Positions 28,119 to 64,000 of a stretch of DNA of 64,000 nt are shown here, one piece after another. The notes beneath the pieces are model-generated. The model was given only the letters and a program-made list of their open reading frames with translations. It ran no database searches and was not told where the DNA came from. Positions within the stretch are counted from its first letter, which is position 1. Every line of letters begins with the position of its first letter. The translations under genes and the position numbers were made by a program. The stretch is from Pseudomonas chlororaphis subsp. aurantiaca (lineage in GTDB: Bacteria; Pseudomonadota; Gammaproteobacteria; Pseudomonadales; Pseudomonadaceae), in the NCBI RefSeq assembly GCF_013466605.1, contig NZ_CP059162.1, forward strand, positions 1,302,001 to 1,366,000, written 5' to 3'.

Positions 28119-30698
28119 TTAGATGCGTGTCTTCAATGTATAGAGCATTTCCAGTGCCTTGCGCGGGGTCATGTCGTCCAGATCGAGCTTGGCCAGGTCA
28201 TCGAGGACTGGGTGCGGCAGGCTGGCGAACATGTCGCTTTGCTGCGGGACCGAGGGCTTGCCCGGTACCAGAGACGGCGCTTCATGGGGCAGGCTGGTGG
28301 TCTCCAGGCGACTCAGGTGCTCGCGGGCGCGGACGATCACATCGCTCGGAACCCCCGCTAACTGGGCCACGGCCAGGCCATAGCTCTGGCTGGCAGGGCC
28401 TGGCAGCACGTGGTGCAGGAACACGATGCGTTCGTTGTGCTCGGTGGCGTTGAGGTGCACGTTGGCGACCAGAGGTTCGCTTTCCGGCAGGACGGTGAGC
28501 TCGAAGTAGTGGGTGGCGAACAGGGTGTACGCCCGCAGCTGGGCGAGACGTTCTGCCGCAGCCCAGGCCAGGGACAGACCATCGAAGGTACTGGTGCCGC
28601 GACCCACTTCGTCCATCAGCACCAGGCTGCGCTCGGTGGCGTTATGCAGAATGTTGGCGGTTTCGCTCATTTCCACCATGAAGGTGGAACGACCGCCGGC
28701 CAGGTCATCGCTGGAACCGATCCGGGTAAAGATGCGGTCCACCAGCGACAGCTCGCAGCTCGCCGCCGGCACGAAGCTGCCGATATGGGCCAGCAGCACG
28801 ATCAGCGCGGTTTGCCGCATATAAGTGGATTTACCACCCATGTTCGGGCCGGTGATCACCAACATCCGGGTTTGATCGTCGAGGCTCAGGTCGTTGGCCA
28901 CGAACGGCGTGGTCAGGACCTGCTCGACCACCGGGTGACGACCCTGGGTGATGCGCATGCACGGCTCGCTGACGAAGCGCGGGCAATTGAGGTCGAGATT
29001 CAGCGCTCGCTCGGCCAGGTTGCTCAGCACGTCCAGCTCGGCCAGCGCCGCGGCGGTGTCCTGCAGCGGCGGCAGGTGACCGATCAGGGTTTCCAGCAGG
29101 GCTTCGTAGAGCATCTTTTCGCGAGCCAGCGCGCGGCTCTTGGCGGACAGCGCCTTATCTTCGAAAGCCTTGAGCTCCGGAGTGATGAAGCGTTCTGCGC
29201 CTTTGAGGGTCTGGCGGCGGATGTAGTCCGCGGGGGCCTGTTCCGCCTGTTTGCTCGGCAATTCGATGAAGTAGCCGTGAATCCGGTTATAGCCGACTTT
29301 CAGGTTGGCCAGGCCGGTGCGGGCCTTCTCCCGGGCTTCCAGGTCGATAAGGAATTGGCCGGCGTTTTCGCTCAGCGATTGCAGCTCGTCCAGCTCGGAG
29401 TCGTAGCCGGTCTTCAGTACGCCACCATCGCGGATCACCGCTGGCGGGTTGTCGATGATGGCTTTTTCCAGCAGCGCCGCCAGTTCCGGGTAGGTGTTGG
29501 TGGTCACGGCCAGTTGGCTCAGGTGCTCGGCTTCGAGCTCGGTCATCGCCACTTGCAGTTCCGGCAGCGCCGCCAGGGCATCGCGCAGGCGCGCCAGGTC
29601 GCGGGGACGGGCGTTGCGCAGGCCAATACGGGCGAGGATCCGCTCGATGTCGCCGATCTCCTTGAGCTGCGGTTGCAGCCTTTCGAAACGGTAACCGTCC
29701 AGCAGGCAGCCGATCGAGGTCTGCCGCGCCTGCAGGACTTTCAAGTCGCGCAGTGGGCGGTTCAGCCAGCGGGTCAGCAAGCGGCTGCCCATGGCCGTCT
29801 GGCAACGGTCGACCACCGATTGCAGGGTGTTGTCGCGACCGCCGGCGAGGTTGGTGTCCAGCTCCAGGTTGCGCCGGCTGGCGCCGTCGAGCACCACGGT
29901 GTCGTCCAGGCGTTCGTGACGCAGGCTGCGCAGGTGGGGCAGGGCGGTGCGCTGGGTTTCCTTGGCATAGCTCAGCAGGCAGCCCGCGGCGCCGATGGCC
30001 AGGGTCAGATTCTCGCAGCCGAAGCCCTTGAGGTCCTGGGTGGAGAACTGCTGGCACAGGCTCTTGTGGGCCGAGTCGCGTTCGAAGTCCCAGGGCGCGC
30101 GACGGCGCACGCCACGGCGTTTTTCCGCCGGCAGGCCTTGCGGCCAGTCGTCCGGAATCAACAGTTCCACCGGGTTGATGCGTTCCAGCTCGGCCAGCAG
30201 GTTTTCCCAGCCCTTGATTTCCAGGACCGTGAAATTGCCGCTGGTGATGTCCAGCACCGCAAGGCCGAACAGACGCTCGTCGCCCAGCACCGCCGCGATC
30301 AGGTTGTCCCGGCGCTCGTCGAGCAGGGCCTCGTCGCTGACGGTCCCCGGGGTGATGATCCGCACCACCTGGCGCTCCACCGGGCCCTTGCTGGTGGCCG
30401 GGTCGCCGACCTGTTCACAGATCACCACCGACTCGCCAAGCTTCACCAGTTTGGCCAGGTAACCTTCGGCGGCGTGATAAGGAATCCCGCACATCGGAAT
30501 CGCCTGGCCAGCCGACTGCCCGCGCGCGGTCAGGGTGATGTCCAGCAACTTGGCGGCCTTCTTTGCGTCTTCATAGAAGATTTCGTAGAAGTCGCCCATG
30601 CGATAGAACATCAGCTGGTCGGGGTGCTGGTTCTTGAGGCGCCAGTACTGCTGCATCATCGGCGTGTGGGAGGACAGATCGGTGAGCGCTTTATTCAT
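28119..30698 (-). CDS. mutS: DNA mismatch repair protein MutS
   Basis: MutS recognises mispairs and starts methyl-independent repair with MutL. I chose ATG 30698 (859 residues, [19 protein letters not shown]), since homologues begin near here; an in-frame upstream start at 30740 adds 14 unlike residues. The mismatch-reading Phe-X-Glu is in GDFYEIF, the ABC-type Walker A is GPNMGGKST, and the Walker B segment is [16 protein letters not shown]. In the P. fluorescens group mutS marks the left edge of the tailocin island, which starts just upstream on the opposite strand. Confidence 0.96.
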
Positions 30699-30834
30699 CG
30701 GGTCGTCAGGTTGATTCGTTGAAAGGGTGGGCAAAAGCAAAGGGCATGGGCCCGGCTTTTTCGCGATGGGCGCAAGGTTACCATGGGCGGTCCGACCTTC
30801 GCAGGGATGAACCCAGACGGATTTTGGGTGTTTT

Positions 30835-30850: not shown

Positions 30851-30885
30851 TTTAGCATTTGTCATCGGCGAAAATAACCCGCAAT

Positions 30886-31620
30886 ATGCGCGTTATGCAA
30901 AAGCGCAACGTATCTACCGTCTTAAGAGAGCTACTCGATCGCGATGGCATTTCCCCCACGGAACTCCATCGGCGTACCGGCGTGCCTCAATCCACCCTTT
31001 CGCGGATCCTCAGCGGCAAGATTGTCGATCCTTCGGACAAACACATCTCGCGGATCGCCGAGTACTTCCAGGTGAGCACTGATCAACTGCGCGGGCGCGC
31101 GGCGGTCGCCTCTGCCCGGCCGGCCGATCCGCATTCGGAACTCAAGGACATAAGTCTGTGGGACGACGATACCCCCGTCGATGACGACGAGGTGTCGGTC
31201 CCCTTTCTTCGCGAGGTTGAATTGGCTGCGGGATCAGGAAGATTCGTCATCGAGGAAAGCGAGCGCTCCAGTCTGCGCTTCGGCAAGCGCAGCCTGCGAC
31301 ACAATGGCGTGCAGTTCGACCAGGCCAAATGCGTGACGGTACGCGGCAACAGCATGTTGCCGGTGCTGCGCGACGGTGCCACGGTGGGGGTCAATGCCGG
31401 CAAATGCGGTATCGGCGACATCATCGACGGCGACCTGTATGCCATCAACCACAACGGCCAGCTGCGAGTGAAGCAGCTCTATCGTCTGCCTTCCGGCATT
31501 CGCCTGCGCAGCTTCAACCGCGACGAACACCCGGATGAGGACTACAGCTTCCAGGAAATGCAGGAAGAGCAGATCGTCATCCTCGGTCACGTCTTCTGGT
31601 GGGGCATGTACGCCCGTTAA
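30886..31620 (+). CDS. prtR: LexA/CI-like repressor with S24 peptidase domain (PrtR-like)
   Basis: This is the likely switch of the tailocin island. An N-terminal helix-turn-helix (about residues 8-60, GVPQSTLSRILSG) precedes an S24 self-cleaving domain: a candidate Ala-Gly cleavage site at 115-116 (ELAAGSG), catalytic Ser156 in RGNSMLP and Lys196 in RVKQLY. By analogy with PrtR and LexA, RecA activated by DNA damage would trigger self-cleavage and release the tail genes. The start is uncertain: ATG 30886 or 30895. No prtN-like activator gene is seen, so control is probably direct. A terminator follows at 31638. Confidence 0.87.
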   Translation: MRVMQKRNVSTVLRELLDRDGISPTELHRRTGVPQSTLSRILSGKIVDPSDKHISRIAEYFQVSTDQLRGRAAVASARPADPHSELKDISLWDDDTPVDDDEVSVPFLREVELAAGSGRFVIEESERSSLRFGKRSLRHNGVQFDQAKCVTVRGNSMLPVLRDGATVGVNAGKCGIGDIIDGDLYAINHNGQLRVKQLYRLPSGIRLRSFNRDEHPDEDYSFQEMQEEQIVILGHVFWWGMYAR

Positions 31621-32170: not shown

Positions 32171-32352
32171 AAGATTGTCGATGTGGACATTGCAAGAGAC
32201 TGCTCGCCCGGATCGGCGAGTATGCAGAGCTCCAGATCAAATGTTCCCGATGCGGAACGCTGAATCATGTGAGGGCCGCGAGCCCCGAGCGATCGCCTGT
32301 GAGCGACATGAATGCTGCTTCGGCGGCCCGACCCAATCCATCACAGCCATAG
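32164..32352 (+). CDS. Com-like zinc ribbon protein
   Basis: The 62-residue product begins MLKDCRCGHCKRLL and contains CSRCGTLNH, a four-Cys zinc ribbon like phage Mu Com, which binds mom messenger RNA and turns on its translation. The basic and aromatic spacing between the Cys pairs fits Com. ATG 32122 would add 14 residues, but the Com family start fits 32164 better. The next gene starts 8 bases after the stop, the place held by mom in Mu, yet it is not mom. An RNA- or DNA-binding regulatory role is inferred from family only. Confidence 0.7.
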   Translation: MLKDCRCGHCKRLLARIGEYAELQIKCSRCGTLNHVRAASPERSPVSDMNAASAARPNPSQP

Positions 32353-32360
32353 GTGAACAC

Positions 32361-32942
32361 ATGAAAGTCTTGAAAAAATATGTCGCTCCCATTCTGGCCG
32401 CCGTTGTGCTGCTGGGCTCCGCAGCCAATGCCGTTGCGGCCAACCTGCTGGTCAACGGCAGCTTTGAACAGCCCGGTTGCAGTGGTAGCTGTATTCTGGA
32501 TACCCCGGCAAAAACCAACTTCATTACCGGCTGGACGACATTCCTGTCCGGTGCCGAGTACTTCAACGTGCCGGCTTCGATTGGCGGCTCCGTAGCCGCG
32601 GACGGTCTGGTGATTGTTGACCTGGCGAACTATATCTATGGCAACGGCGGGGGCATTCAACAGAACTTTGCCACTGTCGTTGGCGCCAAGTACCGACTGA
32701 CGTTCAGCGCCGGTAACTCGAAGTTCGCCGGTCGTTCGGGCGACGGGGTGGTACAGGTCAAAGTGGCTGGCCAAACCGCCACTTTCAATACGCCGACCGC
32801 CAAAGGCGTTGCGATCGAGTGGAGCACCCTGACCTACGACTTCACCGCCACTACCACGCAAACGACTCTGGCGTTCTCCAACGAACAGAATCCGTACGCC
32901 AACTTTGCCTTTATCGACAACGTCATTGTTGAACGTCTGTAA
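32361..32942 (+). CDS. Secreted choice-of-anchor C / DUF642-like protein
   Basis: ATG 32361 follows AGGTG and encodes 193 residues. Residues 1-27 form a signal peptide ending AVAA. The mature start NLLVNGSFEQP is the hallmark of the choice-of-anchor C and DUF642 families, which are jelly-roll, carbohydrate-binding-like domains. Cys 40 and 44 in GCSGSC may form a disulfide. No membrane anchor or PEP-CTERM tail is seen, so it is likely exported to periplasm or outside. Its task in a tailocin island is unknown. It sits between com and the holin gene. Confidence 0.75.
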   Translation: MKVLKKYVAPILAAVVLLGSAANAVAANLLVNGSFEQPGCSGSCILDTPAKTNFITGWTTFLSGAEYFNVPASIGGSVAADGLVIVDLANYIYGNGGGIQQNFATVVGAKYRLTFSAGNSKFAGRSGDGVVQVKVAGQTATFNTPTAKGVAIEWSTLTYDFTATTTQTTLAFSNEQNPYANFAFIDNVIVERL

Positions 32943-37643: not shown

Positions 37644-38282
37644 ATGGCCGACTATTACACCCTGCTCACGAATGCGGGGATCGCCTACGAAACTGCCTGC
37701 AAGGCAGCAGGCGTACCGATCAAGCTGTCGCAGATTTCCGTCGGTGACGGCGGTGGCGCGGTTTACAACCCGGCGGCGACCGATACTGTCCTCAAGCGCG
37801 AAGTCTGGCGCGGCCCGTTGAACGCCCTGTTCCAGGACGAGAAAAACCCCAGCTGGCTGCTGGCCGAAGTGACCATCCCGCCGGAGGTCGGCGGCTGGTA
37901 TGTGCGTGAAGCAGGGCTGTGGACCGACACAGGTATTCTCTACGCCATCGTCAAGTATCCGGAGTCGTTCAAGCCGGTGTTGGCGACTTCGGGGTCGGGG
38001 AAAGAGTTCTATATCCGCTCGATTTTCGAGACCAGCAATGCGTCGCTGGTGACCTTGCTGATCGACGATACGGTGGTCAAGGCCACTCGTGCCTGGGTAG
38101 CCGGGTACGTGGCGGATGAACTCGCCAAGCTTGATGCCAAGCAGTCTGTACGGGTAGCTACTACAGGCAATATTGCGTTGAAGGCGTCACAAACTATTGA
38201 TGGTGTTGCGGTCGTTGCGGGGGACAGGGTGTTGGTTGGACTTGCCCCTACAAAACCGGACACCAACTCCCCGTTAAATTGA
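37644..38282 (+). pseudogene. Tailocin 1 tail fibre, 5' part, cut by an IS
   Basis: The first 197 codons encode the normal P2-like fibre N-terminus (MADYYTLLTNAGIAYETACK) that docks on gpI/J. At 38237 the reading frame runs into IS DNA and ends at TGA 38280-38282 after 15 foreign residues. The product would be 212 residues with no receptor-binding tip. The intact gene would be 512 codons long, ending at 40514. The break falls in the common fibre motif VAGDRVLVKNQ, between its V and L-V-K. Confidence 0.92.
38232..38236 (+). repeat. Target-site duplication, left copy (TTGGT)
   Basis: TTGGT occurs exactly at both IS edges: 38232-38236 and 39564-39568. Five bases fits the IS2 group. Confidence 0.9.
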
Positions 38283-39149
38283 TGCTGGCGCCAAGCGCCT
38301 GAACTCCCTCGGTGAACGGTAATTCAAGGCGCTGTGCGGATGCTGCTCGTTGTAATGCTCGAAGGCAATTGCCAAGTTACGCAACGCCGTTTCTCGATCC
38401 GGCTTGGGCATGTGCGCCACGTAGTCACGCTTGATCGTCTTCACGAAGCTCTCGGCCATGCCGTTGCTCTGCGGGCTGCGCACCGGGGTGGTCACCGGCT
38501 GCAAGCCGATCTGTCGAGCAAACAGGCGTGTCTGTTCGGCGGTGTACGCCGAGCCGTTGTCGCTTAGCCATTGCACCGGCGTGACGGGCAGTTGATCACC
38601 AAAGCGCTTCTCCACGCTTTCCAGCATCAAGTCGCGGATATCATCGCCGCTGTACCCGGTCGGGCTCGCGACCCAGCCGATGGCCTCGCGATCACAGCAG
38701 TCCAGGGCGAAGGTCACGCTCAGTTTGGCCCCGTCCTCGCAGCGGAACTCAAAGCCGTCCGAGCACCAACGCGTATCGCTGGTTTTCACCGCAATACGGC
38801 CTTCGTGCCGACGCGGCACGCCGGGCTGTTTGAGTCGACGTTCCAACAGCAAGTTGTGATCACGCATGACCCGGTAAACTCGTTTCACGTTGATCGCCGG
38901 CAGCGACTGGGTTTCACGGGCGCGACGCAGCAATCCCCAGACACGACGGTAGCCATAGCTGGGAAGCTCGCTGACCTGTTGCTGGATTTCGACCACCAGC
39001 GCAGCATCGTCCACAGGCCTACTTCGCCGTACTTTGGGCGATACCGATTGCTTGATTCGAACCGTTAATTGCGAGCGCGCCACACCGAGACATTCGCTGA
39101 CCAGCTTCACTGGTCGTCCCCCGGCAACAAGGGTGAGTGCGCAATCCAT
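38274..39149 (-). CDS. IS2-group transposase OrfB (integrase catalytic part)
   Basis: The 291-residue protein carries the rve catalytic domain with the DDE triad Asp131 (RWCSDGFEF), Asp197 (LSDNGSAY) and Glu233 (MAESFVK), with 35 residues between the last two. An N-terminal HTH-like section (about 1-90) precedes it. It overlaps orfA by 43 bases; in IS3 elements a -1 frameshift fuses the two into OrfAB. The overlap contains CGAAAATGG, a weaker slip site than the A6G used by IS2, so the mode of fusion is uncertain. Confidence 0.95.
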
Positions 39150-39499
39150 TTTCGCGACCGGGCGATCTCCACGGCCTCTTTGAGGATTTCGGCTTCCATC
39201 GTTTTCTTGCCCAGCATCCGTTGCAGTTCACGGATCTGCTTGAGCGCATCGCTCAGCTCGGAGGCAGGCACCACGGCTTCGCCAGCACTGACCGCCGACA
39301 GGCTGCCGTCCTGATACAGCTTGCGCCACAAGAACAGCTGATTGGCATTGATGCCGTTGCGCCGAGCGACGACCGACACACTTTGTCCTGGCTCAAGGCT
39401 CTCGCGAACCATGGCCAGCTTTTGCTCTGGGCTCCAGCGGCGCCGCCGCTCCTGGCCCAAAAGCTCCCCACTCTTATCGTTGCTGTTAGTCATAAACAT
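39107..39499 (-). CDS. IS2-group OrfA (HTH DNA-binding part)
   Basis: The 130-residue protein has an N-terminal helix-turn-helix (about 20-65, with [17 protein letters not shown] and [20 protein letters not shown]) and a leucine-zipper region (about 85-115). It binds the IS ends and can repress transposition. An alternative ATG lies two codons downstream (39493). Confidence 0.93.
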
Positions 39500-39568
39500 A
39501 ACCGTTTGCCTATCCCTTATCGTAAGGGGGAAACAGTGTCCTGTCTTTCATGGGGCTCGTTCATTGGT

Positions 39569-40514
39569 GAAGAACCAGACGTTATCAAAAGACAATGGGC
39601 TGTATGTTGTTGCGAATGATGTTTGGGTTCGCGCAAAAGATGCTGACTCAAACTTGAAAGTAACCTCTGGCCTTAACGTATCCGTTGAACAAGGCACAAC
39701 TCAAGCTGACACGATCTGGCAGCTAGTGACCGATAGCCCTGTATTACTCGGCACTACCGCTTTGGTGTTTCAAAACATCACCTTCGGTTTTGCACCACTC
39801 AATTCACCGGTGTTCGCCGGCAGCCCGACAGCGCCAACAGCTAACATTTTTAGTAACGATGATGTTCTGGCAACGACTAAATTTGTTCAGCGCGCACTTG
39901 GCAGTTATGCCGGTCAGACGAACTATGATGTCAACACCCAGTTGACCATTGCCGACGTCGGGAAACTATCGATCTTTACTGCGCCCGGCTTGACGGCAAC
40001 GCTTCCTGACTGGAACAGCGTTCCGCCTGGTGGCTTGGTTCATCTGACAACCACTGCGGGATTGACAGTTAAAACCCGATCCGGGGAAACCATTGGGGCT
40101 GTGAACACAACCAACTTGACTAGCGTTGTGCTTCAACCAGGCAATTTTGCGGTTTTCCGGCGCCTGTTGCTGGGGCCCGGTTGGAGTTTGGACTCGGGGG
40201 ATACTGCGCTGAAGTATTCGCCGATGTTTCAAGCGTCGCTAACAGGGGCTAATGGTTACAAAAAAGACCCTAGCGGACTGATCGAGCAATGGGGACTGAT
40301 TCCTTCGTACAACACTGGGGGAAACGTTTCGGTGGTGTACCCGATAGCATTTCCCAATGGTGTGCTTTCAATCACGACCCAGCGACTGGATGGAGTCATT
40401 ACTGCCGGAACGATCGTGATCAATCAGATGCCGGCAACGGGATTCACCTTTGTTGATACTGCCGGTCCAACGGGGGATATCAATTCGATATTCTGGACTG
40501 CGAAAGGCAAGTAG
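39569..40514 (+). pseudogene. Tailocin 1 tail fibre, 3' part (receptor-binding region)
   Basis: After removing the IS and one TTGGT copy, the frame joins exactly: ...VLV|KNQTLSKDNGLYVV. The 3' part encodes about 315 residues with the module FVQRALGSY, LTIADVGKL, LKYSPMF and PSGLIEQWG, typical fibre C-terminal and tip segments. It has no start of its own. It is poorer in GC than the baseplate genes before it, as is usual for exchangeable fibre tips. The same module recurs in fibre C of tailocin 2. Confidence 0.9.
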
Positions 40515-55745: not shown

Positions 55746-56143
55746 TGTTTATCAGCCAAGACCTGCACCGCGCACTGACCCGTTCCGTGCTGATCAGCCT
55801 GTTCACCTGGCGCCGCGCGGCGGACGACGACCCGCTGGATGACGAGGAGCGCTTCGGCTGGTGGGGCGACAGCTTTCCTACCGTGGCCGACGACCGCATC
55901 GGCTCGCGGCTGTGGCTGCTGCGGCGGGTCAAACTCACCCGCCAGACCCAGCTCGACGCCGAGTTCTATGCCCGCGAAGCCCTGCAGTGGCTGATCGACG
56001 ATGGCCATTGCAGCGCGGTGGAGATCATCAGCGAACGTCTCGACGACCAGCGCCTGAACCTGCGCACGACGCTGGTCCTGGCCAACGGTGAACGCCTGGA
56101 CATCAACCCCGATAACAGTTGGCAGGTGACCTATGCCCTTTGA
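55742..56143 (+). CDS. Mu gp46-like baseplate protein
   Basis: The 133-residue protein (MMFISQDLHRALTRSVLISL, with GWWGDSF) belongs to the GP46 family, a gp25-type baseplate wedge subunit. It overlaps gp45 by 4 bases and the gp47-like gene by 11 bases. ATG 55745 is an equally good start. Confidence 0.88.
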   Translation: MMFISQDLHRALTRSVLISLFTWRRAADDDPLDDEERFGWWGDSFPTVADDRIGSRLWLLRRVKLTRQTQLDAEFYAREALQWLIDDGHCSAVEIISERLDDQRLNLRTTLVLANGERLDINPDNSWQVTYAL

Positions 56144-57173
56144 TACCCCTTCGCTGCCGGTGCTGATCAAGCGCACCCAAAGCGACCTGGCCAGCGATGC
56201 GCTGCGCCAGTCCGATGCGCAAGTGCTGGCCCGCGCCCTCGGTGGCGCCGCCTATGGCCTCTACGGCTACCTGGACTGGATCGCCGATCAGATCCTGCCG
56301 GACAAGGCCGACGAGTCGACCCTGGAACGCATCGCCGCGCTGCGCCTCAACCAGCCACGCAAGGCCGCCCAGGCGGCCAGCGGTTCGGTGAGCTTCAGCG
56401 CCGCGGCGGGCGCGGTACTGGACGTCGATACCCTGCTGCAGGCCAGCGACGGTCGCACCTACAAAGTCACCGCCGCCCGCACCACCAGCGCCGGCAACAA
56501 CAGCACCACCATCCAGGCCCTCGACGCCGGTACCCTGGGCAACGCCGAGGCCGGCCTGGACCTGATCCCGGTGCAACCGATCCAGGGCATCGGCAACAGC
56601 TTCACCGTGCTCGCCCCCGGCCTGAGCGGCGGCGTCGCCGCGGAAAGCCTGGAATCGCTGCGCGCGCGGGTGATCCGCTCCTACCGCATCATCCCCCACG
56701 GCGGCTCGGCCCAGGACTATGAAACCTGGGCGCTGGAGTGCCCGGGGATTACCCGCGCCTGGTGCCGTGGCAGCTACCTGGGGCCGGGCACCGTGGGCCT
56801 GTTCGTGATGCGCGACGACGATGCGCAACCGATCCCCAATGCCGAGCAACTGGCGGAGGTAAAGGCCTATATCGAACCGCTGCGCCCGGTGACGGCCGAG
56901 TTGCATGTGCTGGCGCCGCAGCAGTCACCCGTGACCTACAGCCTGCGGCTGTCGCCGGACACCAGCGCGGTACGCGCGGCGGTCGAGGCTCAGCTGCGCG
57001 ATCTGCACAACCGCGAGGCCGGCCTGGGCGACACCTTGTTGATCAGCCATATCCGCGAGGCCATCAGCAGTGCCGCCGGCGAGAACGATCACCGGCTCAG
57101 CGCACCGGTCGCGGATGTCCCCGCCGCCAGTAACCAGTTGCTGACGTTCGGAGGTTGCGTATGGCTGGAGTAA
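56133..57173 (+). CDS. Mu gp47-like baseplate J protein
   Basis: The 346-residue baseplate J-like protein (MPFDTPSLPVLIKRTQSDLA) forms the outer wedge. The segments GGSAQDYETWALE and ITRAWC are typical. It overlaps the gp46-like gene by 11 bases and the gp48-like gene by 13. Confidence 0.9.
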   Translation: MPFDTPSLPVLIKRTQSDLASDALRQSDAQVLARALGGAAYGLYGYLDWIADQILPDKADESTLERIAALRLNQPRKAAQAASGSVSFSAAAGAVLDVDTLLQASDGRTYKVTAARTTSAGNNSTTIQALDAGTLGNAEAGLDLIPVQPIQGIGNSFTVLAPGLSGGVAAESLESLRARVIRSYRIIPHGGSAQDYETWALECPGITRAWCRGSYLGPGTVGLFVMRDDDAQPIPNAEQLAEVKAYIEPLRPVTAELHVLAPQQSPVTYSLRLSPDTSAVRAAVEAQLRDLHNREAGLGDTLLISHIREAISSAAGENDHRLSAPVADVPAASNQLLTFGGCVWLE

Positions 57174-57760
57174 GAACCGCCGCGCAGTACCAGAGCCAGC
57201 TGCGCAGCCTGCTGCCCAGCGGCCCGGCCTGGGACCCGGAGCGGGTGCCGGAACTCGAGGAGGTGCTGGAAGGCGTCTCCCAGGAACTGGCCCGCCTCGA
57301 CGCCCGCGCCGCCGACCTGCTCAACGAAATGGACCCCGCTGGCGCCAGCGAGCTGGTGCCGGACTGGGAGCGGGTGATGAACCTGCCCGACCCCTGCCTG
57401 GGTGCGACCCCACTGTTCGACGACCGCCGCCTGGCCGTGCGCCGGCGACTGCTGGCCGTCGGGAGCCAGGCGCTCGCCTACTACATCGAGATCGCCCGTA
57501 GCCAGGGCTATCCGAATGCCACCATCACCGAGCACGAAGCCCCGCGCATGGGCCGCGCACGGTTTGGTGACGCGCATTTCGGCACATGGCAGGCGCAATT
57601 CATGTGGACGCTCAACACCGGTGGACGACTGCTCCTGGGCCGGCGCTTTGGCGCGAGTTACTGGGGCGAGCGTTTCGGCATGAACCCGGGCTCGGCCCTG
57701 GAATGCCAGATCCACCGCAGCGCACCGGCCCATACGCGGGTGCACATCAATTATGACTAG
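57161..57760 (+). CDS. Mu gp48-like tail protein (YmfQ/DUF2313)
   Basis: The 199-residue protein (MAGVRTAAQYQSQLRSLLPS) matches DUF2313/YmfQ, the gpI counterpart linking the wedge to the fibres. ATG 57161 is preceded by GGAGG at 57151. It ends 11 bases before fibre A. Confidence 0.88.
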   Translation: MAGVRTAAQYQSQLRSLLPSGPAWDPERVPELEEVLEGVSQELARLDARAADLLNEMDPAGASELVPDWERVMNLPDPCLGATPLFDDRRLAVRRRLLAVGSQALAYYIEIARSQGYPNATITEHEAPRMGRARFGDAHFGTWQAQFMWTLNTGGRLLLGRRFGASYWGERFGMNPGSALECQIHRSAPAHTRVHINYD

Positions 57761-57771
57761 GGGATAGACCG

Positions 57772-58629
57772 ATGGATTATCCGAAAAGTGTGCCCAGTGC
57801 CGGGTTGGTCAACGGCAGGTTCGTCGATGAGAACCCGCTGACCGGCACGCCGGGATCGCTGATTCCGGCGGACTGGGGCAACGGGGTGACCCAGGAACTG
57901 CTGGCCGTGATCACGGCGGCTGACCTGACACCCAGCGAGGCGAACCTGACACAGCTGCTGAGCGCGATCCGCAGCATCAGCCGCAAGAGCGCGGGGTTGG
58001 GTATTCAGCGCTTTACCGCCAATGGCAGCTTCACCGTGCCGGAGGGGGTGACGAAGATTTGGTTGAGTGGGTGTGCGGGTGGGGGGGGTGGCGGTTCGTG
58101 TCCAGCTGGAACGACCGGATCCGCATCCGGCGGCAGCGGCGGTGGTGCTGGCCAGCCGGCCATCAAGGTACCCGTCACCGTCACTCCTGGCCAAGTGATC
58201 CCCATCACGATTGGAGCGGCGGGTGTGGGGGGCGTCAGCGGAGTCAGTAACCCGACAAGCGGAGGAAACACGCTCGTGGGTGTGGGGGGCGCTTTGTTGG
58301 TGCTGAGTGGCGGAGGCGCCGGTAACTCGGGGGCAAATCTTCCTGTAGACCGTGTGGCCGGTCCCAGAGGGGGAGAGGGATTTCCCGCCGGTGGCGATGC
58401 TACTGACTCTCAGGCCCAGGTGACGGCAGGACTGTCGGGGGCTGGCGCAAGCGGGCCATTTGGTGGCGGTGGCAGCGCCTGTCGGTATGGAACATCGGGA
58501 GGGTATGCGGCACGGGATGCCTACGGCTTCGGGGCTGGCGGCAGCGGCGCGGGAGGTTGGTATGTGTCTGGTGCCTTGGCCGTCTCGGGGGGGCGCGGTG
58601 CTCCTGGTCTGATGATCATTGAGTGGTGA
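57772..58629 (+). CDS. Tail fibre A, glycine-rich tip
   Basis: The 285-residue protein has the shared anchor domain (residues 1-65: MDYPKSVPSAGLVNG, then FVDENPLTGTPGSLIPADWG) and a tip of about 200 residues dominated by Gly runs (GGGGGGS, GGSGGGAGQP, GGGGS). Such Gly-rich tips form polyglycine-II bundles with exposed recognition loops in adhesins like phage S16 gp38. This would be one of four receptor-binding proteins of tailocin 2. ATG start. Confidence 0.87.
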   Translation: MDYPKSVPSAGLVNGRFVDENPLTGTPGSLIPADWGNGVTQELLAVITAADLTPSEANLTQLLSAIRSISRKSAGLGIQRFTANGSFTVPEGVTKIWLSGCAGGGGGGSCPAGTTGSASGGSGGGAGQPAIKVPVTVTPGQVIPITIGAAGVGGVSGVSNPTSGGNTLVGVGGALLVLSGGGAGNSGANLPVDRVAGPRGGEGFPAGGDATDSQAQVTAGLSGAGASGPFGGGGSACRYGTSGGYAARDAYGFGAGGSGAGGWYVSGALAVSGGRGAPGLMIIEW

Positions 58630-58633
58630 ACAT

Positions 58634-59275
58634 ATGACTAAGCAAGTTCTTTACTGCCTTGGGTCCGGGGTGGTCATCGAGTGGCAGGACACTGAAGTAC
58701 TGGCCTACGCGGCGACAGCCGAGGGCAACAGTGTCCTGCAGGTGACGGCCGAGCAATGGAAGCAGAAAGATGCGTTGCATTTCGTGCTGGATGGCGAACT
58801 GACTCGGGTCGATGGACCTCCACCCTCTGCTGCTCACTACTGGGACGGTAGCCAGTGGTCGCTGGACTCCCTGGAGGCCGCAACCATCGCCGAACAGGAG
58901 GCGGAGCAACTTTGCCGGCGAGTGGACGCGGAGGCTGACGCCGCCCGGCAGATGCTCGGCGGCGACCCGCTGCGTGCCATGGAGTATGCCCAGGCCGCCA
59001 GCGACGCCCAGGCGTTCAAGGAGGCCGGCTACCCGAAAAAGGCAGTGCCCCTCGCGGTAAGCGCCTGGGTAGTGAAAGGCCGTACCGCCAAGGCAGCGGC
59101 CGACCAGATTCTCGACAAGGCGGCCGAGCTCAACAGCAAGCTGTTCGCACTTCGCACGCTGCGCTTGCAGGCAAAAGAGCGCATCCGGGCTCAGGCCAGC
59201 AAGGGCAAGCAGGAAGCTGCGAAAGACGCCTGCGAGGCAGCGATTGAGGCGATTGGCAAGGTTGTCGGCGACTGA
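58634..59275 (+). CDS. Fibre A partner, putative chaperone or tail protein
   Basis: The 213-residue protein begins MTKQVLYCLGSGVVIEWQDT; residues about 95-210 are helical and Ala/Lys-rich (AEADAARQMLGGDPLRAMEY). It sits 4 bases after fibre A, as tail fibre assembly proteins do, but lacks the WP-ending Tfa motif of the other three partners, so it belongs to another family. Role inferred from position. Confidence 0.6.
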   Translation: MTKQVLYCLGSGVVIEWQDTEVLAYAATAEGNSVLQVTAEQWKQKDALHFVLDGELTRVDGPPPSAAHYWDGSQWSLDSLEAATIAEQEAEQLCRRVDAEADAARQMLGGDPLRAMEYAQAASDAQAFKEAGYPKKAVPLAVSAWVVKGRTAKAAADQILDKAAELNSKLFALRTLRLQAKERIRAQASKGKQEAAKDACEAAIEAIGKVVGD

Positions 59276-59384
59276 TCCGGCCTTTGTCGGGCCTGTCTTT
59301 CATAAACATGCTATGGCGCTCACTGCAACGTGGGCGGCTTTTCGCACAGGGCTCCCTGAGCAAGGGGGATTGCAGGGCAATGAT

Positions 59385-60305
59385 ATGGATTATCCGAAAA
59401 GTGTACCCAGCGTTGGCTTGGTCAATGGCTGGTTTGTCGATGAGAACCCTCTGTCGGGCACACCGGGATCGCTGATTCCCGCCGCCTGGGGCAACGGGGT
59501 GACGCAAGAAATCCTGAATGTCATCAAGGCCGCCGGCCTGGCACCGGACGAAGCGAAAAACGACCAGTTGGCGCTGGCGATCGCAGCCCTGGTCGACTTC
59601 ACCAAGCTGAAGAACACCCCAACCACCTTGAGCGGATATGGCATCACTGATGCCGGCGGGCGCTTGTTGGCAGTGAAGCAGTTCGACACCGTCGGCGTCA
59701 CGGTCTATCGCCCCAACCCCAAGGCCAGGCGTATTCGGGTCCGCCTGGTCGGTGCGGGAGGCTCCGGTGCCGGTTGTCCGCCGGTAGCGGCCACTTATCA
59801 AAGCCTGGGCGGTGGCGGAGGGGCTGGCGCCTATGCGGAGAGTCTTTACGACGTGACTCCGGAAATGTTGGCGGGTGTACCCATCACACTGGGTGCCGGT
59901 GGGGCCGCTCGAACCAGTATGGGGGCCGCGGGAGGTGCTGCGTCGTTTGGCAGCCTCATGAGCGCCGCAGGGGGAGGAGGGGGGCAGATTCTGACCTTCG
60001 TATCTAACACGCCAGGATTTGTCCAGGGCGGCATGGGCGGCCAAGTCGTAACGGGTGGCAACCTTGCCAATGCGCGTGGTGCAACGGGTGGTTATGCGAT
60101 GAGCAATCCCAATTGGGGCCTGCTTTCTGGATGGGGAGCCGCCAGCCCGTTCGATGGCGGCGGCCCCTTCAACGGGGTGAATGGCAATGGCAATGCGGGT
60201 CAGCGAGGTTCCGGCGGCAGCGGCAGCTGTTCGAGCAATCCATCTGCTTCGTATGTGAGTGGCTCCGGCGGCAACGCCTTTTGTGAAATCTGGGAGTACG
60301 AATAA
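59385..60305 (+). CDS. Tail fibre B, glycine-rich tip
   Basis: The 306-residue protein shares the anchor MDYPKSVPSVGLVNGWFVDE and the PGSLIPAAWGNGVTQEI segment, then a linker (TTLSGYGITDAGG), then a Gly-rich tip of about 190 residues distinct from fibre A (GGGGGAGAYAES, GGAARTSMGAAGG). ATG 59385 is preceded by AGGG. The 109-base gap before it contains no gene. Confidence 0.87.
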   Translation: MDYPKSVPSVGLVNGWFVDENPLSGTPGSLIPAAWGNGVTQEILNVIKAAGLAPDEAKNDQLALAIAALVDFTKLKNTPTTLSGYGITDAGGRLLAVKQFDTVGVTVYRPNPKARRIRVRLVGAGGSGAGCPPVAATYQSLGGGGGAGAYAESLYDVTPEMLAGVPITLGAGGAARTSMGAAGGAASFGSLMSAAGGGGGQILTFVSNTPGFVQGGMGGQVVTGGNLANARGATGGYAMSNPNWGLLSGWGAASPFDGGGPFNGVNGNGNAGQRGSGGSGSCSSNPSASYVSGSGGNAFCEIWEYE

Positions 60306-60793
60306 TGGCCCTCTATGCACGAGTCGAAGACGACGTTGTCGTCGAACTGATCGAGACCGGTGGCTTCATGATTTCCCAGCTGTTTGCCGCGGATTTTCTG
60401 AGTTCGATGGTCGCTGTCCCTGAGGGCGTCGAGGTTGAGCTGGGGAAGCCGATCTACCTTCCCGAGGTTGCACCGCTTTCCCCCGTGGTGGACGTGGCGG
60501 AGGCAGTGGCGCTTGCTCCCGAAGTGCGAGTCAAGGCGACTGACGAGGATGCTCTGGTTCAGGAGCGCAACTGGCGTCAATCGATGCTATCGACCAGCCA
60601 ATGGCTGGTGACCCGCCATCGTGATGAACAGGAGCTGGGGCGGGGCACGACGCTGACGGCGAAACAGTACCTGGAGTTGCTTGAGTATCGCCAGGCACTG
60701 CGTGATTGGCCCGCCTCCGATAGCTTTCCCGAGATGACCGCCCGACCGTCGATTCCAGTGTGGTCAGTGAGTTTTTTTCATACAGCCGATTGA
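60305..60793 (+). CDS. Fibre B assembly chaperone
   Basis: The 162-residue protein (MALYARVEDDVVVELIETGG) carries the Tfa-type C-terminus, STSQWLVTRHRDEQELGRGT then LLEYRQALRDWP. It shares one base with the fibre B stop. Its C-terminus resembles the fibre D chaperone most. Confidence 0.82.
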   Translation: MALYARVEDDVVVELIETGGFMISQLFAADFLSSMVAVPEGVEVELGKPIYLPEVAPLSPVVDVAEAVALAPEVRVKATDEDALVQERNWRQSMLSTSQWLVTRHRDEQELGRGTTLTAKQYLELLEYRQALRDWPASDSFPEMTARPSIPVWSVSFFHTAD

Positions 60794-60855
60794 TCGAGGG
60801 CTGCGTTTATTTCAAATGGATCAGCAGCGTATGTATCTGCATCGCGCTCATCAAT

Positions 60856-60885
60856 AAAAACGCCCGCTTCAAGCGGGCGTTTTTT
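60856..60885 (+). terminator. Intrinsic terminator between cassettes B and C
   Basis: AACGCCCGCTT and AAGCGGGCGTT form a near-perfect stem with a T-run, 60 bases after the fibre B chaperone. Cassettes C and D thus lie beyond a strong terminator, unless another promoter exists in 60886-60961. Confidence 0.9.
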
Positions 60886-60961
60886 ATGGGGCGTGCAGTT
60901 GGCTGCTTCATGACCCTGGTCCGCAGGTGGGCCAACAGAATTTATTATCAGGAGCAAGACC

Positions 60962-61882
60962 TTGGATTATCCAAAGAGTGTGCCCGGTGTAGGGCTGATG
61001 AATGGAAGGTTTGTTGATGAAGACCCGCTGGCCGGCACGCCAGGTTCGCTTATTCCGGCAAGTTGGGGGAATAGCGTTACCCAAGAGATTCTCGGCGTAA
61101 TTCAGGCGTCGGGTATGACGCCGGACGAAGGGGCGGATGATCAACTGCTGAGTGCATTACGCAGTCCAACGCTCTTTTCTACGCCTCCTCGTTTTGACGT
61201 GAGTCGGTCGGTCGCTACTCCAGAGTTTGTACAGCGCGCGCTGGGTAATTACTCCAGCGCTCGAGGAATATCGGAAAGCACGCAACTGACCATTGCCGAT
61301 GTAGGTTGCTCAATCGGCCTCGGTGGGACCACCGGTTATACTGTAACCTTGCCGGATGTTTCGACTGTTCCAAATGGCGCGACCATCAGCTTGCATTGCC
61401 GCAATAGTGCGATGGTTACCATCGCCAGCAAGAGTGGGGCGCAGATCAGTCCACAAGGGAACTTTCTGAATTCCATTGTGATGAGTAGCGGTGAAAGCGC
61501 GAATCTGGTTCGTGAGTCAGGTGTCTGGACCGTTTATGGTACGGCTAGCCTCAAGTACTCCGCGTTGTATGGGGCTCAGTTGTCGACGGCGGGTTATCAG
61601 AAGTACCCGAGCGGGCTGATCATGCAATGGGCGATGGGTGGAACCGATGCCGATGGGGTCATGTCTCTGTCGCTGCCCATAAAGTTTCCCAATGCCATAT
61701 TGGGAGGCATCGCTGATGAAGGTTATCCGCCAGGCTGGGGAGGCAACGTTACCGTCTGGTCATTCGACGTAACGTCATCGAGCACGTCAACAGCTGTCGC
61801 CCGGGCCAGATGGGTCGAGGTTGGTGGAACCATCAGAGTGAGCTCGGGCATATCCGGTCGCGTACTGGTTTGGGGGCGATAA
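60962..61882 (+). CDS. Tail fibre C (TTG start)
   Basis: The 306-residue protein shares the anchor (first codon TTG, then DYPKSVPGVGLMNGRFVDED and PGSLIPASWGNSVTQEI). After it the module FVQRALGNY, LTIADVGCS, LKYSALY and YPSGLIMQW is homologous to the tip of the tailocin 1 fibre. GGAG lies 7 bases upstream of TTG 60962. Lower GC than fibres A and B. Confidence 0.85.
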   Translation: MDYPKSVPGVGLMNGRFVDEDPLAGTPGSLIPASWGNSVTQEILGVIQASGMTPDEGADDQLLSALRSPTLFSTPPRFDVSRSVATPEFVQRALGNYSSARGISESTQLTIADVGCSIGLGGTTGYTVTLPDVSTVPNGATISLHCRNSAMVTIASKSGAQISPQGNFLNSIVMSSGESANLVRESGVWTVYGTASLKYSALYGAQLSTAGYQKYPSGLIMQWAMGGTDADGVMSLSLPIKFPNAILGGIADEGYPPGWGGNVTVWSFDVTSSSTSTAVARARWVEVGGTIRVSSGISGRVLVWGR

Positions 61883-61884
61883 CC

Positions 61885-62370
61885 ATGAAGATTTATTTCT
61901 TTGCGAAAACCCTCGGCTTCGATGTTGTCGCCTCTGCGAACGAGGCTCCGCCAGAAGGTGCGGTTGAAATCAGTCAGGTTGAATATGCCGAACTCTTTGC
62001 CGGGCAGGGCGTGGGCAAGCGGATTGCGGCCAATGACAACGGCGCGCCCATTCTTGTCGACCCTGCCGGCCCCTCGCCGGAACAATTGATTTCAATTGAA
62101 CGTGCCTGGCGAGACACAGAACTGCTCAAGAGCGACGGGTTGATCGCCCGGCACCGCGATGAACTGGAGTCTCAAGCCGTCACCACCTTGTCCGATGCCG
62201 ACTACAACGCCCTGCAAGCCTATCGCTGCGATCTGCGCAGTTGGCCAAAATCCCGAAAGTTTCCAGCCGTCACAGATCGCCCCGTGCTGCGAATGACTTC
62301 CGGCACTATGGGAGCGACGGTGAAAAGAAAGAGGGTGAGAAAGCCGGTGCAGGTGACCGAGTCCGTTTGA
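61885..62370 (+). CDS. Fibre C assembly chaperone
   Basis: The 161-residue protein (MKIYFFAKTLGFDVVASANE) has the C-terminus RAWRDTELLKSDGLIARHRD, ending near LRSWPKSRKFP, which matches the tailocin 1 chaperone (40525-40950). A basic tail follows. It starts 2 bases after fibre C. Confidence 0.82.
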   Translation: MKIYFFAKTLGFDVVASANEAPPEGAVEISQVEYAELFAGQGVGKRIAANDNGAPILVDPAGPSPEQLISIERAWRDTELLKSDGLIARHRDELESQAVTTLSDADYNALQAYRCDLRSWPKSRKFPAVTDRPVLRMTSGTMGATVKRKRVRKPVQVTESV

Positions 62371-62442
62371 GTTTGTCGGTTCTGTGTTGGGCTTTGCCGA
62401 ACGCTGAAGTTTTTTATGTTTAATTTGTATGAGGGCTAGATA

Positions 62443-63183
62443 GTGGACTACCCAAGGAGTGTACCTGGCGCCGGTTTGGTAAACGGAAAGTTTGTCGATG
62501 AAAACCCCCTCACGGGTATGCCAGGGTCTTTGATTCCGGCTGATTGGGGGAATGCTGTTACACAGGAAATTCTGGAAGTTATTCGAGCGGCAGGCGATAC
62601 GCCGAATGAGTCTGACAATACGCAACTGAAAGCAGCGGTTTCTGGTTTGATTTCAAAGAAACAAAGCGAAAACCTGGCGAATCAGGAAGAGGCGGAAGCC
62701 GGAGTCAATACCGCCAAGACGATGTCGCCGTTACGCGTGTTTCAGGCCATTGCTAAGAAGGTGGTCCAGGCAACGGAGTCCATCGCGGGTATTGCCAGAG
62801 TGGCTTCGCAGGCAGAGGTCAATGCCGGTACAAGTGACATTTCTGTCGTGACTCCTAAAAAGCTTCGATTGGGCTTTCTGGTAAGAATGGGAGCTTCTGG
62901 GTACATCGTTTTTCCTTCATGGATGGGGGGGCTGATTATTCAATGGATCACGGGGAGTGCAAGTCAGACTGCCAATAATGGTTACGGTGAGTACAACCCT
63001 TGGCCTCTGGCATTTCCCAATGCGCGTTTTCTCGCAGTTGCCACTCATGAAGGGACAGCTTCTGGAACATTTCTAACGGTCTGCAACCTTTCGGTTGCGA
63101 GCAGCCTTACCGGGATCAATGTACGTTGCCCCGATTGGCCGTCGCAAACTATCGCCGCCCGAGTTATTGGCATAGGGTATTGA
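62443..63183 (+). CDS. Tail fibre D (GTG start)
   Basis: The 246-residue protein starts at GTG 62443 with the shared anchor (DYPRSVPGAGLVNGKFVDEN, GTPGSL-like run reading GMPGSLIPADWG), then a different linker (ENLANQEEAEAGVNTAKTMS), and a compact tip with GLIIQWITGS. GAGG lies 8 bases upstream. The 72 bases before it hold no gene. Confidence 0.85.
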   Translation: MDYPRSVPGAGLVNGKFVDENPLTGMPGSLIPADWGNAVTQEILEVIRAAGDTPNESDNTQLKAAVSGLISKKQSENLANQEEAEAGVNTAKTMSPLRVFQAIAKKVVQATESIAGIARVASQAEVNAGTSDISVVTPKKLRLGFLVRMGASGYIVFPSWMGGLIIQWITGSASQTANNGYGEYNPWPLAFPNARFLAVATHEGTASGTFLTVCNLSVASSLTGINVRCPDWPSQTIAARVIGIGY

Positions 63184-63185
63184 AT

Positions 63186-63617
63186 ATGTATTACTTTTCT
63201 CCCGAAACTTTCGGTTTCTATAACTCAGAACTGCACGGGAAAAATATTCCAGTAGATGCCTTCGTGATCAGTGATGAAGACTATGAGTCACTGGTAATAG
63301 AGGCACTGCCTGGTACCGTTTTATCCCTGAATAGCAAAGGTTTTCCCGAACGTATTTCCTTCGATTCCCAAAATACTCCTGAGGTCGAAAGGGCCTGGCG
63401 TAACAAGGTCCTTGAGTCGACTCAGTGGCTGGTTATTCGTGATAACGAAGAGCTGGAAATGGGTGAAGGGACGACGCTGAATACCGAACAGTTCAAGGAG
63501 CTGCTGGCTTATAGGCAGGCGTTGCGGGACTGGCCTTCAGCCGCCGACTTTCCGGACGCTGAATATCGACCTGTCGAACCAGCCTGGCTTGAAAGTGTTC
63601 TCCAGGAGCGTAAATGA
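63186..63617 (+). CDS. Fibre D assembly chaperone
   Basis: The 143-residue protein (MYYFSPETFGFYNSELHGKN) has the Tfa-type C-terminus, RAWRNKVLESTQWLVIRDNE and LLAYRQALRDWPSAADFP. Its N-terminus resembles the tailocin 1 chaperone, while its C-terminus matches the fibre B chaperone, a mosaic pattern. Confidence 0.82.
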   Translation: MYYFSPETFGFYNSELHGKNIPVDAFVISDEDYESLVIEALPGTVLSLNSKGFPERISFDSQNTPEVERAWRNKVLESTQWLVIRDNEELEMGEGTTLNTEQFKELLAYRQALRDWPSAADFPDAEYRPVEPAWLESVLQERK

Positions 63618-63662: not shown

Positions 63663-64000
63663 ATGCCTGTCACCCTTGAAATGATTCAACGCATCATGCC
63701 CAACGCCCGCTCCCAAGCGGGCGTTTTTGTTTCTGCGCTTAACACCGCCATGGTGCATCGCTATATCGACACACCCAAACGCATGGCCGCCTTCCTCGCG
63801 CAGGTCGGTCATGAGTCGGGGCAGTTGCGTTATGTGCGGGAGCTGGGCAATGACCAGTACCTGAGCAAATACGACACCGGCAGCCTGGCGGCCCGTCTGG
63901 GCAATACCCCGGAGGCCGATGGCGACGGCCAGAAATACCGTGGCCGTGGTCTGATCCAGGTCACCGGTCGCGACAACTACCGGCAATGCAGCCTCGGATT
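63663..64000 (+). CDS. GH19 endolysin (partial, runs off the window)
   Basis: The visible 112 codons encode a chitinase-like GH19 lysozyme (MPVTLEMIQRIMPNARSQAG), with the catalytic Glu51 in VGHESGQLRYVREL and the segment YRGRGLIQVTGRDNY. It cleaves peptidoglycan and completes lysis with the holin and amidase at the far left. In R2 pyocin the same endolysin (PA0629) follows gpD. ATG 63663 is preceded by GGAGG. The C-terminus lies beyond position 64000. An intrinsic-terminator hairpin is embedded in codons 14-22. Confidence 0.92.
   Translation, partial: MPVTLEMIQRIMPNARSQAGVFVSALNTAMVHRYIDTPKRMAAFLAQVGHESGQLRYVRELGNDQYLSKYDTGSLAARLGNTPEADGDGQKYRGRGLIQVTGRDNYRQCSLG
63702..63727 (+). terminator. 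Terminator hairpin inside the endolysin coding region
   Basis: AACGCCCGCT and AGCGGGCGTT pair across CCCA and run into five T, inside codons 14-22 of the endolysin. The stem sequence is nearly the same as that of the terminator at 60856-60885. Confidence 0.75.

Follow-up and report, generated by a model that had tools for sequence, protein, structure and literature searches.

A slotted array of exchangeable fibre-chaperone cassettes as the probable receptor-binding module of a Mu-type R-tailocin in Pseudomonas chlororaphis

The 64,000-nucleotide stretch analysed here (the window; Pseudomonas chlororaphis subsp. aurantiaca, contig NZ_CP059162.1, positions 1,302,001 to 1,366,000) closes with the last part of a second tailocin at the mutS-cinA locus of a Pseudomonas chromosome of 6.95 Mb, where four tail fibre genes, each followed by a chaperone-like gene, stand between a gp48-type baseplate gene and a lysozyme gene. 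Judged from sequence, this is most probably (roughly three chances in four) a slotted array of exchangeable cassettes that constitutes the receptor-binding module of a Mu-type R-tailocin and would give one cell several specificities. Each fibre would assemble as a homotrimer, aided by the chaperone of its own cassette, and all four would compete through a common N-terminal anchor for six gp48 sockets, like the fibre of phage Mu. One cell would release tailocins of several specificities, borne either together on mosaic particles or separately on uniform ones that form a mixture, and the repertoire would be changed by homologous recombination of single slots, often at or inside the anchors, without a site-specific switch. 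Docking on gp48, trimer formation, simultaneous expression and the binding of different receptors are the parts of this scheme that we infer. The cassettes and the genes on either side of them are as follows (types are Louvain clusters of tips and chaperones; 8 of the 23 tip groups are singletons).

57155..57760 (ATG at 57161), + strand: gp48-like baseplate protein, predicted to dock the fibres (PF10076, E 1e-27)
57772-58629, + strand: fibre A, type T11, Gly-rich tip, 285 amino acids, ATG start
58634-59275, + strand: chaperone A, phrog_8983 (annotated as function unknown), of a family that differs from that of chaperones B-D
59385-60305, + strand: fibre B, type T3, Gly-rich tip, 306 amino acids, ATG start
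60305-60793, + strand: chaperone B, above the Pfam Phage_tail_APC cut-off
60962-61882, + strand: fibre C, type T1, R-pyocin-like/gp53-like head, 306 amino acids, TTG start
61885-62370, + strand: chaperone C, phrog_188 (E 1e-38), just under the Phage_tail_APC cut-off
62443-63183, + strand: fibre D, late-slot T6 type, gp53-like head, 246 amino acids, GTG start
63186-63617, + strand: chaperone D, above the Pfam Phage_tail_APC cut-off
63663..64000, + strand: GH19-type endolysin (lysozyme) gene after the array, continuing past the window end

A preliminary description of this region had proposed that several fibres with a common anchor and different tips, each with its own chaperone-like gene and all preceded by a single gp48-type gene, belong to one tailocin, and in these respects it is borne out. 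The anchor comprises 66-67 residues, and residues 1-67 of fibres B, C and D are 76, 72 and 73% identical to those of A, whereas the tips are of distinct types. At the DNA level the anchors form a 173-nucleotide direct repeat in four copies, all in the same orientation, of which the other three are 82, 71 and 69% identical to the copy in A. One assembly-chaperone-like gene follows each fibre gene, that of cassette A giving a weak 'tail fiber assembly protein' match (E 3e-5). A search of the whole genome with the anchor profile (E 0.001) returns exactly four places, all inside the array, together with one gp48 match. On a check for stop codons and frameshifts all four cassettes are intact, with all eight fibre and chaperone reading frames in frame, none broken, and the tips conserved. 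Fibre A additionally matches the Pam3 fibre 7yfw over residues 40-284 (E 2e-6). Concerted evolution of the anchors through gene conversion was considered and rejected: between genomes, anchors of one tip type are more alike (82% of amino acids) than the anchors of a single genome are among themselves (69%; 21 arrays).

The window was compared with 80 loci chosen by gp48 from named genomes (the best 80 of 120), giving 81 loci in all; loci L035-L114 were chosen by gp48 and L013-L032 for several fibres, the genomes of the two sets overlapping. One cassette is present in 19 of the 81 loci, two in 9, three in 16, four in 18, five in 17 and six in 2, i.e. at least two in 62, and because of these counts the four cassettes of the window are an ordinary number in this lineage. 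The gene order common to the loci is gp48, cassettes and lysozyme gene, with the lysozyme match missing on the fetched DNA in 5 of the 80. Both six-cassette arrays, in P. chlororaphis EA105 (L094) and P. koreensis DSM 16610 (L086), are in slot order. Among 149 Pseudomonas genomes, the anchor profile matches in 60 and the gp48 profile in 61, 53 of them strongly (E 2e-78 or better); tandem anchors number one in 24 of these 53 genomes, two in 9 and three or more in 20, so that at least two are found in 29. In one of the nine two-anchor genomes (G108), the second fibre contains an internal stop. In 21 genomes that represent other families of this order, the anchor profile had no match.

The tip types of the 62 multi-cassette arrays follow a majority order, namely T1c4 or T8, then T2, early T6 or T11, then T0, then T3, then T1c0 or late T6, and last T4 or T5. 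With this order 352 of 363 type pairs agree (mean 238 and maximum 257 in 1000 shuffles), as do 244 of 255 pairs when only the 46 distinct arrangements are counted (shuffle mean 177, maximum 195), type pairs seen once being scored as concordant in the data and in the shuffles alike. The exceptions include T0 standing first in L050, and T4 in L046 and L054. Types that are alternatives for one slot exclude each other almost entirely: in the 53 arrays of at least three cassettes they co-occur 0 times at slot 1 (7.6 expected), once at slot 4 (5.4 expected) and 0 times at slot 5 (6.5 expected), and it is the window that carries the two slot-4 types together, as C (T1) and D (late T6). Different-slot controls are mixed, with T0 and T3 together in 18 arrays against 20.9 expected (134 of 5000 shuffles being as low), T2 and T0 in 33 against 31.2, and T3 and T5 in 12 against 6.4. 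Tip type also predicts chaperone type for T0 (50/50), T2 (37/37) and T3 (24/24), whereas the chaperones of T1 and T4 tips are divided between two types. A fixed slot order, exclusive alternatives and exchange near anchors did not turn up in the literature excerpts searched; Dorosky 2018 and Ghequire 2015 may contain more. The slot rule would amount to a testable grammar for keeping several specificities in a precision antibacterial and exchanging them between species.

Of the 45 pairs of loci closest in backbone (92-96% identity, with some loci entering more than one pair), 42 differ in array content, and the order is therefore kept despite exchange rather than through mere shared descent. The backbone nearest to that of the window, from Pseudomonas sp. 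NFIX28 (90.5%), has only the first tip type in common with it, and similar backbones may differ in a single slot, as L063 and L065 do by type in the last slot only. Homology running in from the backbone ends inside the anchor in 5 of 10 pairs (L064/L076, L062/L070, L093/L094, L079/L085 and L047/L053); in the other five, by local alignment, it ends in or behind the tip, the window and L035 included, and to place breakpoints always inside the anchor is too strong. As anchors of different types are already 75% alike, identity in bins is a better guide than tract ends. In pairs with a swapped first slot (n=35), the first three 33-nucleotide bins are 86, 84 and 82% identical, compared with a paralogue baseline of 78, 75 and 74% and with 97, 95 and 93% for same-type pairs (n=16). 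In some pairs exchange thus took place within the first 100 nucleotides of the anchor, and in others where the anchor starts or ahead of it.

Could the four cassettes be decaying duplicates, i.e. one functional fibre and the relics of earlier acquisitions? Relatives do lose cassettes, and the scars sit at the expected slot: in L069, T0 and T6 are separated by the remaining end of a T3 chaperone (77% over 91 residues); in L078, a fragment of an anchor stands between T0 and T1 (61% over 28 residues); and in L072, more weakly, the gap from T1 to the lysozyme gene holds a short terminal piece of a T5 chaperone (53% over 19 residues). Short fibres are encoded in L053, L077 and L080. On the other hand, 250 of the 254 fibres in the compared loci are at least 180 amino acids long and one of the four shorter ones is truncated where its contig ends. 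The four gaps of the window yielded no scar, and its fibres and chaperones are not only unbroken but show a low ratio of nonsynonymous to synonymous substitution rates (dN/dS) against the nearest relative. We consider decay very improbable for this array. By eye, the T0-T1 gap of L024 contains a decayed anchor piece where a T3 cassette would be, and the T1-T5 gap of L025 and L052 a stretch that looks like the lysozyme gene's 5' end, which would fit an insertion of the last cassette there.

The tip dN/dS values against the nearest relative are 0.16 for A, 0.06 for B, 0.07 for C and 0.06 for D, and are rough because dS is 1.6-2.7 (saturated, like many other dS values). In pairs with dS of 0.1-1.2, the medians of the types range from 0.04 to 0.15, with a maximum of 0.28. 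The tips are under purifying selection, being conserved rather than racing, which argues for the use of every slot.

Such conservation in every common tip type also speaks against a rival model, in which expression is confined to the first cassette, or to A and B, and the cassettes behind a terminator serve as silent donors for recombination into the slot that is expressed. This model draws on a perfect hairpin resembling an intrinsic terminator, with a T-run on both strands, in the gap between cassettes B and C (60856-60885), and 35 further arrays have similar hairpins after a T2, T8 or T11 cassette. By the same criterion, 45 of 233 junctions carry a terminator-like hairpin against 0.6 expected from shuffled gaps (a control that shuffles two-base blocks rather than exact dinucleotides), 29 of the 34 T2-to-T0 junctions among them, and such a hairpin is internal to 40 of the 62 arrays and absent from 22; none stands behind cassette A. 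Among the 19 T3-to-T1 junctions, that of the window is the only one with a hairpin. The model also accords with homology between arrays that frequently stops in or near the anchor, and with initiation signals: in arrays of at least three cassettes, the Shine-Dalgarno match is stronger at the first cassette (median -8.3 vs -6.0), and TTG starts are found at 0 of 53 first slots vs 18 of 164 others. In the window, however, the Shine-Dalgarno values of A-D are alike (-6.4, -5.5, -6.6 and -6.1), and TTG starts are mostly a property of type T1 (15 of 19). The lysozyme gene lies downstream of the same hairpin and must be transcribed, so some transcription must pass the hairpin or begin behind it. Moreover, tip types mostly stay in their slots, which implies that donors seldom arrive at slot 1. 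Silent donors are thus an unlikely account of the array. Visual inspection of 36 aligned gaps revealed no conserved promoter behind the terminator. A further terminator-like hairpin, which resembles that of the B/C gap, lies within the 5' end of the lysozyme gene (63702-63728).

The same signals suggest that the fibres may be made in unequal doses. A hard-wired, ranked repertoire, in which each slot has its own set of alternatives and position sets dose, is a possible but doubtful extension of the slotted array: the strongest ribosome site would be on the first cassette, and an internal terminator would thin later transcription. If this were true, the mosaic particles of a clone would display one main specificity and several lesser ones at a constant ratio, and species would replace their repertoires one slot at a time, at the anchors.

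A phase-variable switch, either an invertase or a diversity-generating element that picks the fibre, has precedents: tailocin fibres are altered by DNA inversion in Pectobacterium and Xenorhabdus (excerpts of PMC10598620), and a 2026 review mentions tail fiber 'switching' as a mechanism of P. chlororaphis (excerpt of PMC12961389). In agreement with the preliminary description, which saw neither an invertase nor inverted crossover sites, the 6.95-Mb genome contains no match to the serine recombinase family PF00239 (tyrosine recombinases were not searched), the four anchors are co-oriented and the longest inverted arms measure 24 nucleotides. Neither the serine invertase nor the inverted crossover sites of a switch of the Mu or carotovoricin type were thus found in this genome, and the same is true of the reverse transcriptase of a diversity-generating retroelement, PF00078 giving no match in the 6.95 Mb. 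Among 14 control genomes, the PF00239 search was positive in 10 and the PF00078 search in 3. Such a switch is hardly credible here.

Docking on gp48 is suggested by likeness to phage Mu, in which six trimeric fibres are held by a docking loop of gp48 (PMC11915804, in excerpt). The gp48 of the window matches that of Mu (9ki1, E 3e-7), and a profile of B-type fibres matches residues 41-83 of Mu gpS (E 0.006). The anchor also occurs, 62% identical over about 70 residues, in Stutzerimonas and Burkholderia phages (records OQ504958 and OK665841), and fibre B is matched by 3 of 50,697 phage records.

Several points weigh against the slotted array as a module of simultaneously used fibres. The four-row anchor profile gives only a weak match to Mu (E 0.06), and the predicted gp48 docking loop (about residues 138-160, placed by position) has a conservation of 0.93 vs 0.92 for other parts of gp48 in 80 of the 81 loci (L112 omitted); as the loop is no more conserved than the remainder, we infer docking from the likeness to Mu and give it as a prediction. 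The slots were named after the arrays had been seen, the T6 type of slot 1 owes its definition to its position, and kinship among the loci inflates the shuffle tests. Nor does the array read plainly as one transcription unit: no sigma-70-type promoter was found on the + strand between 57500 and 64000 (the scan gave one promoter-like site, on the - strand, vs 2.4 expected by chance), and with the B/C hairpin this implies that the output of C and D may be reduced or even absent. Finally, both fibre expression and particles are predictions for this strain.

The window array is of a known kind and not a new system, as 62 of the 81 loci hold two to six cassettes and a review describes a P. chlororaphis tailocin with three fibre genes; the novelty claimed in the preliminary description is thus not upheld. 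The published accounts are cited here from excerpts. Tailocins with more than one fibre gene are known in P. chlororaphis and Kosakonia (PMC12090994, PMC10598620), and for one P. chlororaphis tailocin the assembly of three fibre genes in three distinct complexes is described (PMC12090994). Like the window, this multi-fibre R-tailocin (Dorosky 2018, via PMC12090994, PMC10598620 and PMC12961389) has several fibre genes for one tailocin, whereas the window has four cassettes and the excerpts mention no slot order. The ssh6 element of P. fluorescens Q8r1-96 (EU982300; Mavrodi 2009, PMC2647930) occupies the same site before lys, cinA and recA; its annotation reads as a gp48-like gene followed by three fibre/chaperone pairs, with an anchor-type match at three places. 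It differs from the window in having three pairs, and the excerpted paper lists tail fibre and tail collar genes without discussing an array. Tailocin #2 of CHA0 (Vacheron 2021, PMC7815802) likewise lies at a mutS-cinA/recA locus that holds two R-tailocins, with fibre genes that vary, and no cassette order is mentioned in the excerpted account. Phage Mu shares the gp48 docking protein, the pairing of fibre and assembly-protein genes and interchangeable fibres, but selects its fibre by inverting the G segment (PMC11915804), no invertase having been found in the genome of the window. The Pectobacterium and Xenorhabdus tailocins combine several specificities in one tailocin as well, with invertible fibres as opposed to the fixed, co-oriented array described here. 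In the excerpts consulted, the P. syringae tailocin regions inspected have a single fibre (PMC12208367), and one review gives tailocin clusters as typically having one fibre gene and asks why not more targets are covered (PMC12090994). In contrast to this single-fibre view, several fibres are common in the present Pseudomonas lineage, as in the 29 of 53 strong-gp48 genomes.

Upstream of the array, the backbone of tailocin 2 is of Mu/SfV type, with genes for sheath, tube, DNA-circulation protein, gpP, gp45, gp46, gp47 and gp48 (Pfam matches PF04984, PF10618, PF21929, PF06890, PF07409, PF04865 and PF10076). The contractile tail gene set of a Mu-type R-tailocin is present, as are the position between mutS and cinA-recA and a PrtR-like repressor, and no capsid, portal or terminase was found among those open reading frames that were scanned with Pfam (38, of which 36 lie in the window). 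The remaining features are:

28122-30740, - strand: MutS (Pfam scan)
30859-31617: PrtR-like S24/HTH repressor (Pfam scan)
56133..57173, + strand: gp47/Baseplate_J-like baseplate wedge protein (PF04865, E 9e-58)

The cinA gene lies just past the window end, where a recA reading frame was also recognised by eye in the list of open reading frames. Tailocin 1, upstream, is of P2 type (Tail_P2_I, Phage_tail_fib), and its fibre N-terminus differs from the tailocin 2 anchor. Its fibre gene (region 37644-40514) is apparently interrupted, with a PF12571 N-terminus at 37644-38282, an IS3-like transposase (HTH_21 and rve) on the opposite strand at 38277-39149, and beyond this a reading frame at 39342-40514 with a gp53-like fibre C-terminus. 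Should this be the case, tailocin 2 may hold the working specificities of the strain. Also upstream of tailocin 1, a DUF642 protein is encoded at 32175-32942, between the repressor and an amidase gene.

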